From Chlamydiota bacterium (GTDB lineage: Bacteria > Actinomycetota > Thermoleophilia > Solirubrobacterales > Solirubrobacteraceae): a stretch of 45,958 nucleotides of DNA. Made by a program: the position numbers and the translations under genes. Below are positions 1 to 4,071 of the stretch, piece by piece. The notes beneath the pieces are model-generated. The model was given only the letters and a program-made list of their open reading frames with translations. It did not search any database and was not told the origin of the DNA. The stretch lies in the NCBI GenBank assembly GCA_903970125.1, contig CAJCHW010000167.1, positions 1 to 45,958 of the forward strand, given 5' to 3'. Positions within the stretch are counted from its first letter, which is position 1; each line of letters starts with the position of its first letter.

Positions 1-1405
1 TGCGGCGCGCGGCGATCGACCCTGAGTCCGGATCGGGCTCCGGCTCGGCGCTGCCGATGCGCACGGGACCAACCGCCAGCAGCACCGCGCCCGCGCAGGC
101 TGCGGCGATGATCATGAATGTCCAGCCGCCGCCGAATGCGCTCACGGCGGTCGCCGGCGAGGGGGTGCCGAGGATTGCCACCAGCGCTGCGACGCCGAGC
201 ACCGATCCCAGCTGGCGCGACATGCCCAGCACGGCCGTGCCTGTTGCAAAGCGCGCCGCCGGCAGCGGACCGGTGGCGGCGGCCGAAAGCGTTGGCAGCA
301 CCAGGCCAACGCCCGCTCCCCCGAGCAGCTGCGCCGGAAGCATCGCGCCCGCGTAGTTCGGGGCCAGCGTCATGTGGGTGCGAAACCAGGCGCACCCACA
401 AGCGAACAGGATCGCCCCGATGGCGCCCACGTACCGCTGGCCAAAGCGTTGGCCAAGCACTCCGCCGGGGAAAGCAAACGCCGCGGCCATTGCCGGCCCT
501 GGGGCGATCTGCAGTCCGGCGCGCACGATCGAGTCGTGCCAGACAGATGTCTGAAACAGCACGCTTCCCAACAGCAGCGCGGCAAAGGCGCAGAAGAACA
601 GAAGCGCTCCCAGGTTCGCCAGCGCGATCGCGCGGGTGCGCACGATGATGGGCTCCACGAGCGGCGCGGGGTGAGTTGCGCAGCGCCGGGCCACCAGTGC
701 AACGAGCACTGCGGTTGTGCCAAACAAAGCGAGCACGCGTGCGCCACCCCAGCCCCACTGCGGCGCCTTGATGATCGCGAGCGTGAGCGCTCCTATAGCC
801 GCCGTGAACAGGGCCGCTCCCAGCAGGTCCGGCCGCGCGCCGGCACGGTCGCGCACCTCACGCAGCAGGCCAAACGAGGCGGCCAGCGCGGCCAGCCCGA
901 TTGGCACGTTGACTATGAACACCCACCGCCATCCCACCTGGACCAGCAGTCCCCCTATCGGCGGCCCCGCCGCCGCGGCAACGCCGCCTACGGCCGCCCA
1001 GATTCCCACGGCCGCCCCGCGTTTGGCAGCGGGATACTCGGGCAGCAACAGACCCAGTGACGTCGGCAGCATCAGCGCGGCACCCAGCGCCTGCACGACC
1101 CGCGCGGCCGTAAGCGCGCCAACCGACGGCGCGGCGGCGCATGCCGCCGAGGCAAGGCTGAAGATCGCGAGTCCCGCCAGAAATCCCCGCTTGCGTCCTG
1201 CGCGGTCGGCCCAGCGGCCTGCCGGCACCAGCAGCGCGGCAAAGGTGATGGCGTAGGCATTCAGAACCCACGACAGCGTCCCCAGGCTAGCGCCGTGAAA
1301 GTTGCGCTGGATCGCCGGGAATGCGATGTTGACAATGAAAAGGTCCAGCGAGGCCATGAAGACCCCGACAGAGACCGTGAGCGTGACCTTGGTGCGCCTC
1401 GACAT
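1..1405 (-). CDS. MFS multidrug exporter, DHA2-like (3' end cut by window edge)
   Basis: Proton-driven efflux protein of the major facilitator superfamily, in the cytoplasmic membrane. The frame opens at the ATG at 1405 and stays open to the left edge (about 468 codons visible), so the C-terminus is missing; the tail already looks polar and acidic, so little is probably lost. Visible: first membrane helix with the D-x-x-I-V-N pattern (residues 21-26), motif A GRWADRAGRKRGF (63-75), the antiporter motif C as GPPIGG (147-152), and many hydrophobic segments consistent with the 14-helix DHA2 group. A GAGGG ribosome site lies 7 bases before the ATG. It is divergent from an HxlR regulator and its promoter is covered by two matching palindromes, so it is probably that regulator's target. 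The substrate cannot be read from sequence. Confidence 0.9.
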   Translation of the reverse strand, partial: MSRRTKVTLTVSVGVFMASLDLFIVNIAFPAIQRNFHGASLGTLSWVLNAYAITFAALLVPAGRWADRAGRKRGFLAGLAIFSLASAACAAAPSVGALTAARVVQALGAALMLPTSLGLLLPEYPAAKRGAAVGIWAAVGGVAAAAGPPIGGLLVQVGWRWVFIVNVPIGLAALAASFGLLREVRDRAGARPDLLGAALFTAAIGALTLAIIKAPQWGWGGARVLALFGTTAVLVALVARRCATHPAPLVEPIIVRTRAIALANLGALLFFCAFAALLLGSVLFQTSVWHDSIVRAGLQIAPGPAMAAAFAFPGGVLGQRFGQRYVGAIGAILFACGCAWFRTHMTLAPNYAGAMLPAQLLGGAGVGLVLPTLSAAATGPLPAARFATGTAVLGMSRQLGSVLGVAALVAILGTPSPATAVSAFGGGWTFMIIAAACAGAVLLAVGPVRIGSAEPEPDPDSGSIAARR

Positions 1406-1427: not shown

Positions 1428-1442
1428 GTTGCTTGACGCAAC
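1428..1442. promoter_or_regulatory. Operator 1, GTTGC-N5-GCAAC palindrome
   Basis: A perfect 5-5-5 inverted repeat. It lies just downstream of the -10 element of the MFS promoter, where a bound regulator would block transcription. Its partner at 1460-1474 has the same arm sequence (GTTGY/GCAAC) and the same 15-bp length; the centres are 32 bp apart, close to three helical turns. Binding by the adjacent HxlR protein is inference. Confidence 0.6.
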
Positions 1443-1444
1443 GC

Positions 1445-1473
1445 ACTCTAGCGCAGAGCGTTGTGTGATGCAA
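1445..1473 (-). promoter_or_regulatory. Promoter of the MFS exporter
   Basis: On the minus strand, TTGCAT (1473-1468) and TAGAGT (1450-1445) are separated by exactly 17 bp, a good housekeeping-sigma promoter. The predicted start falls in operator 1, and the -35 element lies in operator 2. Confidence 0.55.
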
Positions 1474-1474
1474 C
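1460..1474. promoter_or_regulatory. Operator 2, GTTGT-N5-GCAAC palindrome
   Basis: Inverted repeat with one mismatch between arms, matching operator 1. It overlaps the -35 elements of both divergent promoters (minus-strand TTGCAT at 1473-1468 and plus-strand TTGTGT at 1461-1466), so one bound regulator could control both the exporter and its own gene. Confidence 0.6.
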
Positions 1475-1489
1475 GCAGTCCGCTAACCT
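1461..1489 (+). promoter_or_regulatory. Promoter of the HxlR regulator, probably leaderless
   Basis: TTGTGT (1461-1466) and TAACCT (1484-1489) are spaced by 17 bp. The -10 ends only 6 bases before the GTG start at 1496 and no ribosome site is present, so the transcript probably begins at or next to the start codon. Confidence 0.5.
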
Positions 1490-1495
1490 GAAACT

Positions 1496-2026
1496 GTGCT
1501 CGGCAGCGATTACGCAGAACAGAACTGTTCGGTCGCGCGCACCCTGGAGCTGGTAGGTGAGCGCTGGACGATCATGATCCTGCGCGAAGTCTTCCTGGGA
1601 GTGCGCCGGTTCGACGAGATGCAGCGCAATCTTGGCGTCGCGCGCAACGTGCTGAACGCGCGCCTGCAGCGCTTGGTCGATGCGGGAGTGCTCAAGCGTG
1701 TCCCCTACCAGGAGCGCCCCGCTCGCAGCGAGTACCGCCTGACCGCAAAGGGGGTCGACCTTTGGCCGGTGCTGATGGCGCTGCGGGAGTGGGGCGATCG
1801 TCACGCCGCGCCCGCGGGCCCCCCCGTCGTACTCCAGCACACAGGCTGCGGCGGCAGCGTCGACGACCGGCGTCGCTGCGAGCGCTGCGGCTCAGACCTC
1901 GAGGCCTGGGATGTGACTGCGCACGCCGGCCCCGGGATCAACGCTGCGCCAAGCCGCCGGCTGGCACCGGATGGTGACGGGGTGCTGGGCTCGGCAGCCC
2001 TGGTTGCGGCGCCAGCAGGCGGCTGA
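1496..2026 (+). CDS. HxlR-family winged-helix transcriptional regulator
   Basis: DNA-binding regulator, 176 residues from a GTG start. The N-terminal 100 residues are a typical HxlR winged helix: a Cys near the N-terminus (NCSVARTL), the GERWTIMILREVFLG helix, RRFDEMQRNLGVARNVLNARL as recognition region, and a wing around ERPARSEYRLT. The tail carries a compact C-G-G-...-C-E-R-C-G pattern (about residues 119-132) that could be a small zinc ribbon, as in some long HxlR members. It is divergent from an MFS exporter with two shared palindromes between the genes. Inference: autoregulated repressor of that exporter, released by a toxic ligand or by Cys modification. The last 30 residues are low-complexity and may be unstructured. 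Confidence 0.9.
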   Translation: MLGSDYAEQNCSVARTLELVGERWTIMILREVFLGVRRFDEMQRNLGVARNVLNARLQRLVDAGVLKRVPYQERPARSEYRLTAKGVDLWPVLMALREWGDRHAAPAGPPVVLQHTGCGGSVDDRRRCERCGSDLEAWDVTAHAGPGINAAPSRRLAPDGDGVLGSAALVAAPAGG

Positions 2027-2955: not shown

Positions 2956-3873
2956 CTAGGCGCGCGCGCGTGGGTCCGGCAGTGGCGTCAGCAGCGGTTC
3001 GATCTCCCCACGACGGCGCTCCAGAAACGGTGGCAAAGACAGTCGCTCGCCAAGATGCTCGGGCGCCTCGTCGGTCGCAAATCCGGGCCCGATCGTGGCG
3101 ATCTCAAACAGCACGCCGCTCGGCTCACGAAAGTAGATTGAGCGAAAGTAGTAGCGATCGATCACGGGTGTGGGCCGGGCACCGTACGCGGCGGCACGTT
3201 CACGCCAGGCCTCGTGGTCGTCCATGGCTGCAGCGAAGGCCACGTGGTGCACCGTGCCCGCCCCCGGCTGCGGGGGTGCGTCGCCGGGTGGGTCATAGCG
3301 GTAGAAGCTGCCGCGGTGATCGCCGCGCAGCTGGAGCGCTCCGGTGAGCGAATCCACGAATCCCAGTCCGTCGCGCAGCAGGTGGTCGCTTGCCCCCGGA
3401 TTGACCGCATAAGCCCTCACCCCATCGAAGCCCTGGAGGGCGTGTTCGCGCGGAATCCCGGGAGCATCCGCGATCAGTGGCGAATCGGCCGCTGTGGAGA
3501 CCAGCAGCGCATGTTGCAGCCCCTCGGGATCGGCGAAGACGAGCTCATCGTCGCTGCGCGTGATCTCAACCCCGTGGTCGGCCAGCCGCGCGGTCCAAAA
3601 GTCCAGGGCCGCCTGGCTTTCGACGCGCCAATCGATGCGGTGCACCATTCCGGCCCCAGCTCGGCCACGCAAGGCGTGGGGGTACTCAAAGAACGTGAGG
3701 TCGGCGCCCGGGGAGCCCTCCTCGTCGCCGTAAAACAGGTGGTAGACGGTCGGGTCGTCCTGGTTGACGGACTTCTTGACCAGGCGCAGTCCAAGCACGC
3801 CGACATAGAAATCGACGTTGCGCGGTGCATCGCCGGTGATGGCGGTGACGTGATGGATCCCCTCGAGCTTCAT
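2956..3873 (-). CDS. Ring-cleaving dioxygenase, two-VOC-domain (MhqA/MhqO type)
   Basis: Metal-dependent extradiol-type dioxygenase of the glyoxalase (VOC) superfamily; relatives open hydroquinones or catechols and help resist quinone stress. I place the start at ATG 3873 because AGGA lies 8 bases upstream and the conserved beginning MKLEGIHHVT follows; an in-frame ATG at 3918 has no ribosome site. 305 residues. Domain 1 begins with GIHHVTAI, domain 2 with TVHHVAFA, and VLFEIATIGPGF supplies the usual glutamate ligand near the end. A -10-like TAATCT lies on the minus strand at 3898-3893. The next gene, the 5'-3' exonuclease, starts 5 bp past the stop. The aromatic substrate cannot be specified. 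Confidence 0.88.
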   Translation of the reverse strand: MKLEGIHHVTAITGDAPRNVDFYVGVLGLRLVKKSVNQDDPTVYHLFYGDEEGSPGADLTFFEYPHALRGRAGAGMVHRIDWRVESQAALDFWTARLADHGVEITRSDDELVFADPEGLQHALLVSTAADSPLIADAPGIPREHALQGFDGVRAYAVNPGASDHLLRDGLGFVDSLTGALQLRGDHRGSFYRYDPPGDAPPQPGAGTVHHVAFAAAMDDHEAWRERAAAYGARPTPVIDRYYFRSIYFREPSGVLFEIATIGPGFATDEAPEHLGERLSLPPFLERRRGEIEPLLTPLPDPRARA

Positions 3874-4071
3874 CGTGTTCCTAAAGCTCTTCAGATTAGC
3901 CTCACGGCCTGCTGACATCGCGATCTGGGTGTGATCGGCTATGGCCCGGTGTCGATCGCTCCCTTTGCGATCTTGGCTTGCGGTCCATACCGCAATCCCT
4001 GTAAAGCAGCCACCATGATTGGTGTTCGGCAGCTCAAGGAAGGCGGGCTGGCTGAGCTACCGAGCGAAACC

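Follow-up and report, generated by a model that had tools for sequence, protein, structure and literature searches.

HxlR of Bacillus subtilis protects two boxes upstream of hxlAB. To our knowledge the HxlR regulators are mostly unstudied, and they are widespread, with homologues in all 61 genomes compared here (the source genome and 60 relatives). Published accounts describe B. subtilis HxlR as a positive regulator that binds DNA more strongly when formaldehyde acts at Cys11, with a helix-to-helix distance of 34.8 Å in the DNA-bound protein. YodB of B. subtilis and QsrR of Staphylococcus aureus are MarR/DUF24 repressors that sense quinones, and a review gives the YodB operator as TACT-N7-AGTA, a 15-bp palindrome.

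Here a divergent pair of genes, encoding an HxlR regulator and an MFS exporter, was analysed within a DNA stretch of 45,958 bases, which as a whole is called the window. The two palindromes that lie between these genes are very probably binding sites of the adjacent HxlR protein, because the same layout was found beside many related regulators and the letters of the palindromes co-vary with one residue of the recognition helix.

The divergent genes and their interlocked predicted promoters

The intergenic stretch is 90 bp long (1406-1495) and separates the MFS gene on the minus strand from the HxlR gene on the plus strand. The contig ends at window base 1 and truncates the MFS gene (1..1405, start codon 1405-1403). 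Its product scored 136.6 bits against PF07690 (MFS_1; gathering cut-off 33.4) and the best NCBIfam model was of the DHA2/EmrB type; the score against TIGR00711 was 211.6 bits, below the curated cut-off of 230.2, a weak failure given the truncation of the gene. The HxlR/DUF24-type regulator (1496..2026, plus strand) has a GTG start at 1496, encodes 176 amino acids and scored 84.8 bits against PF01638 (gathering cut-off 20.8).

The AlphaFold2 model of HxlR (mean pLDDT 86.3) contains a winged helix-turn-helix with a recognition helix at residues 50-62, at the start of which lies the recognition segment A49-R50-N51. The model matched the HxlR-DNA complex 7bzg with a TM score of 0.80 by target length and the QsrR-DNA complex 4hqe with TM scores of 0.78-0.80. 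Cys11 was invariant across 47 aligned HxlR homologues, as expected of a conserved N-terminal sensing cysteine, and is absent from some wider homologues, for example those of L137 and L005. The protein also has a C-terminal extension (window 1847-1888) in which C128 is invariant and C118 and C131 are nearly so; this extension is possibly a zinc ribbon.

Two genes from the HxlR gene, the minus strand encodes a protein of the glyoxalase/dioxygenase superfamily with two PF00903 stretches (2956-3918). Ring-cleaving dioxygenases are described as members of the YodB/QsrR quinone regulons, and by this analogy the neighbouring gene hints at a quinone-type inducer for the window HxlR. The only site-like match near this gene, at 3817-3831 with one mismatch, lies inside the glyoxalase-domain reading frame and was taken as coding sequence.

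Operator 1, the distal palindrome GTTGCTTGACGCAAC (1428..1442, centre 1435), has perfect 5-bp arms and matches the motif exactly. Operator 2, the proximal palindrome GTTGTGTGATGCAAC (1460..1474, centre 1467), deviates from perfect arms by one letter. The coordinates and the distance of 32 bp between the centres were as originally predicted; the arms had been described as GTTGY, and this part was revised, the consensus arm being GTTGC with Y reflecting the one substitution in operator 2. GTTGYN5RCAAC matched only these two places in the window. When the letters of the intergenic stretch were shuffled 20,000 times, one or more matches arose in 4 cases. With up to two mismatches permitted, the pattern was common (134 matches in the window against a shuffle mean of 94), so that the information is carried by the exact pair only.

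Both predicted promoters interlock with these palindromes in the way that had been proposed. The exporter promoter on the minus strand consists of a predicted -35 TTGCAT (1468..1473) and a predicted -10 TAGAGT (1445..1450), and the HxlR promoter on the plus strand of a predicted -35 TTGTGT (1461..1466) and a predicted -10 TAACCT (1484..1489), each with a spacer of 17 bp. When the stretch 1406-1495 was searched for TTGNNN-N16/17/18-TANNNT, these were the only two pairs found. Both -35 hexamers lie inside operator 2, which thus supplies this element to the two promoters, and operator 1 is separated by 2 bp from the exporter -10, on its downstream side, and therefore covers the predicted exporter start site. 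The HxlR -10 ends 6 nt before the GTG at 1496 and no Shine-Dalgarno sequence was seen ahead of this codon, from which a leaderless HxlR transcript is predicted. On the MFS side GAAAGAGGG precedes the ATG.

Conservation of the palindromes and of the promoter geometry

HxlR promoters were collected from the 61 genomes, from named genomes that were scanned in addition, from a search of 232 genomes belonging to the order and from further stretches. This gave 157 loci, corresponding to 123 promoters after removal of repeats, of which 120 had an ATG, GTG or TTG start and enough upstream sequence; the set also takes in remote paralogues of HxlR and records that belong to other orders. The original prediction had staked its case on the palindromes being conserved in related HxlR loci, and a proximal site with at most three mismatches was found in 74 of the 120 promoters (at most one mismatch in 45). 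The palindrome was seen in four families of the order and in other parts of the phylum. In 61 of the 74 the proximal palindrome starts at -43 to -36 from the HxlR start. A proximal site within three mismatches was missing from the other 46 rows, several of which are homologues with other motifs, and others show no palindrome.

A distal copy within 75 bp accompanied the proximal site in 49 of the 74 promoters, compared with a mean of 1.03 and a maximum of 5 in shuffles. The site corresponding to operator 1 is often weaker in relatives, as in GTTGCATGATGAAAC. The layout, which had been thought rare, proved common among related HxlR loci, and it is the regulator that the sites accompany, not the MFS gene: among 62 rows that reach 55% identity and have 400 or more bases of upstream sequence, 27 have a homologue of the window MFS in divergent orientation. 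The distal copy occurred in 24 of 28 rows with such a homologue and in 24 of 44 rows where none was found (Fisher p 0.0096, uncorrected for kinship). An analysis that assumed no motif gave a perfect 15-mer palindrome with 5-bp arms at -55..-28 in 71 of 188 pooled promoters, against 16 of 186 at the control position of -130..-103 and a shuffle mean of 6.9 (maximum 13).

The strict palindrome GTTGCNTSANGCAAC was present at 18 places in 16 of the 61 genomes, and its reversed control at none in the same genomes. Sixteen of the places are directly upstream of an HxlR homologue. The remaining two, both in genome G035, have no HxlR-like match beside them; one (L067) overlaps the start of a gene for a 4HBT-domain thioesterase and the other (L274) stands ahead of a gene for a short-chain dehydrogenase. 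In other genomes, homologues of the two genes are found upstream of HxlR in reverse orientation, the thioesterase in 25 of 189 loci (matches starting 15-396 bp away) and the dehydrogenase in 3 of 189 (106-116 bp away), which makes a small HxlR regulon with these two unlinked members plausible. The search for additional sites in the source genome that had been suggested at the outset was less productive. The 2.66-Mb draft, which is 87% complete, yielded no further exact site. One mismatch gave five further places, against one forward and one reverse match of the reversed pattern; four of the five are inside open reading frames of at least 100 codons and the fifth overlaps the start of the gene for the 30-kDa subunit of NADH dehydrogenase, and none was taken as a target.

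The geometry was examined in 58 two-site promoters of the pooled set. In 40 of the 58, the opposite arm of the proximal palindrome has its TTG 17-18 bp from a divergent -10 (TANNNT); after shuffling of the sequence that separates the two sites, this was the case in 1.14 promoters on average and in 4 at most. Four promoters have the -10 at 27-28 bp, one has it only at distances outside these two classes, and the remaining 13 showed none. This indicates that in most two-site promoters one palindrome supplies the predicted -35 elements of both divergent genes. On the HxlR side, a TANNNT at a spacer of 16-19 from the proximal TTG was present in 47 of 94 proximal-site promoters (shuffle mean 3.6, maximum 9) and was not found in the other 47; in 34 of the former the gap from -10 to start codon was 6-8 nt.

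The spacing of the two operators was 32-35 in 35 of the 58 promoters, 36-39 in 2 and 40-45 in 18, with 23, 49 and 55 observed once each. Such a distribution is expected if the two sites prefer one face of the helix, an argument weakened by kinship among the promoters. The distal site may instead be an independent operator of the exporter, the 32-bp spacing merely mirroring the promoter geometry with no contact between dimers. In favour of independence, a spacing of 32-33 follows from the positions of the -35, the -10 and the start site. In 14 of the 18 promoters with a spacing of 40-45, moreover, the distance between -10 and proximal site is still 17 bp, which places the distal operator further downstream; in the other four the -10 stays beside the distal site. 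Genus g45 alone spans spacings of 37 and 40-45, and for this reason strict helical phasing of the operator pair is suggestive only. We hold independence of the distal site to be quite possible, a little short of even, and it is compatible with the rest of the explanation that follows.

From the sequence anatomy, its conservation, the promoter geometry and the covariation with residue 51 described below, we infer DNA binding, repression, response to an inducer and possible cooperation between dimers. It is highly likely, in our judgement, that the palindromes are HxlR operators, that a dimer at operator 2 represses both genes with a second dimer at operator 1 adding to the effect, and that an inducer releases them. 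Each palindrome would bind one HxlR dimer with its two recognition helices in successive major grooves, and the helix spacing of the DNA-bound B. subtilis protein fits arms that are one turn apart. Because the palindrome carries TTG on each strand, a dimer at operator 2 would hide the -35 hexamers of both promoters and so turn off the leaderless hxlR gene and the exporter together. At operator 1 the second dimer, sitting on almost the same helical face, would cover the exporter start and add to the repression. An inducer that acts on the conserved Cys11, probably an electrophile or an aromatic compound, would then release HxlR and turn efflux on; an inducer of this kind is likely by analogy, since Cys11 is placed where B. 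subtilis HxlR senses formaldehyde.

The same analogy means that repression is not given by the family, B. subtilis HxlR being an activator. With an invariant Cys11 in the 47-sequence alignment, the window HxlR could bind its sites and, when modified, activate the exporter as the B. subtilis protein does hxlAB, while repressing itself. This is unlikely, since the operators are in a blocking position, operator 2 covering the exporter -35 and operator 1 being located past the -10 on its downstream side, and at spacings of 40-45 the distal site is even further downstream in 14 of 18 promoters. Joint repression of regulator and exporter is the preferred reading.

Recognition residues and operator letters

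Rules relating the protein to its operator were derived from the helix residues listed beside the operators of the first promoter set and were written down before a wider search. This search covered 396 genomes across the phylum and gave 116 new loci, 48 of which were dropped as repeats of earlier proteins, leaving 68 promoters (all classed as 'same phylum') from 17 families and 31 genera. Within the 110 bases ahead of each gene, a site was scored at any position, one arm mismatch being allowed. The predictions largely held, with the failure of one sub-rule, that for residue 49.

Proteins with the segment ARN were accompanied by a GTTGC site in 13 of 19 cases, against a shuffle expectation of 0.15, and the site was missing in the other six. 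Among the 49 non-ARN rows GTTGC was found twice, once in two ASN rows and once with SRN. SRK proteins had GTTCC in 3 of 3 cases and SRS proteins GTTCG in 1 of 2, and the six PRA/PKA proteins had GTTCA in five cases and GTTCG equally in five, so that base 5 was not told apart. The five SRN rows were mixed, with GTTGC, GTTCC and GTTCA once each. The sub-rule that residue 49 sets base 4 was rejected, as six ARP proteins had no GTTGC site and carried GTTCG in three cases and GTTCA in one; these GTTC-type sites make residue 51 a better predictor of base 4 than residue 49.

Covariation was measured in the 71 of 188 promoters with a perfect palindrome, the other 117 being left out, as the mutual information that each of the first 130 protein columns shares with each of the five half-site positions. 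With no motif assumed, the highest value was obtained for residue 51 and base 4 (0.770), followed by residue 51 and base 5 (0.458), and the best column outside residues 49-51 reached 0.414. All 49 rows with Asn51 have G at base 4, and 20 of the 22 rows with another residue at 51 have another base. A quick tree, calculated with residues 47-57 left out, shows 8 and 7 changes of the two traits, with only one independent pair on well-supported branches, and common descent may accordingly be part of the cause of the covariation.

Considered jointly, these data favour, with some reserve, a reading in which residues 49-51 of actinobacterial HxlR proteins set the operator half-site, residue 51 governing base 4, within a shared promoter design where one palindrome forms both -35 elements and is separated from a second copy by a preferred number of turns. 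The pairs within this reading would be ARN/ASN with GTTGC, SRS with GTTCG, SRK with GTTCC, and PRA/PKA/PRP with GTTCA or GTTCG; the pairs TRS with GTCGC and PRD with GTTGG are drawn from thin evidence. If the code is true, the operators of unstudied HxlR genes could be predicted from the protein sequence.

Several other site types were observed. The loci L039-L043 (Lentzea), L136 and L126 have a second operator class resembling GTTCG-N5-CGAAC together with SRS-type recognition segments. TRS-type HxlR proteins of genus g40 (L117, L119, L120 and L139) have sites resembling GTCGC-N5-GCGAC, perfect only in L119, and no TRS protein was present among the 68 promoters of the wider set. SEA/SES-type HxlR proteins (L203, L210, L242, L244 and L266) are preceded by longer repeats of a form other than the 15-bp one.

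Since HxlR binding is deduced from sequence, the palindromes could in principle belong to a different regulator, an unrelated factor sharing this class of promoter, or be due to chance. That the sites accompany HxlR genes, and not the MFS gene as such, and that their letters change with HxlR residue 51, makes this very improbable and argues for HxlR as the protein that binds them.

Comparison with described regulators

Correlation of protein and operator letters has reportedly also been carried out for the IclR family. Searches of the open full-text literature, which mostly lacks subscription journals, found neither an HxlR operator of the GTTGCNTSANGCAAC type nor an HxlR recognition code. A conserved operator with a matching helix residue offers a direct way to predict HxlR binding sites, build reporters and find inducers, and the shared -35 palindrome shows how a regulator and an exporter can be co-switched within 90 bp. 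An analysis of the same kind is the comparative study of Suvorova et al. (2015; PMC4494728), which reports correlations between protein and DNA letters as well as divergons whose sites are single or double; it concerns the GntR family, and its abstract names no HxlR regulator.

The window HxlR resembles YodB and QsrR in its modelled fold (5hs7, 4hqe) and in the conserved N-terminal cysteine. The YodB operator is likewise a 15-bp palindrome but differs in its letters, with TACT-N7-AGTA in place of GTTG-N7-CAAC. Unlike YodB and QsrR, the window HxlR has a C-terminal CxxC extension, a gene predicted to be leaderless and a divergent MFS exporter. With B. subtilis HxlR it has in common the Pfam family, the fold (7bzg, with DNA) and a cysteine at the same number, Cys11; that protein activates hxlAB in response to formaldehyde, whereas the window HxlR would act as a repressor. 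Palindromic operators and cysteine-based sensing are already known for the HxlR/DUF24 family, of which this locus is a further case, and the proposed recognition code is the newest part.
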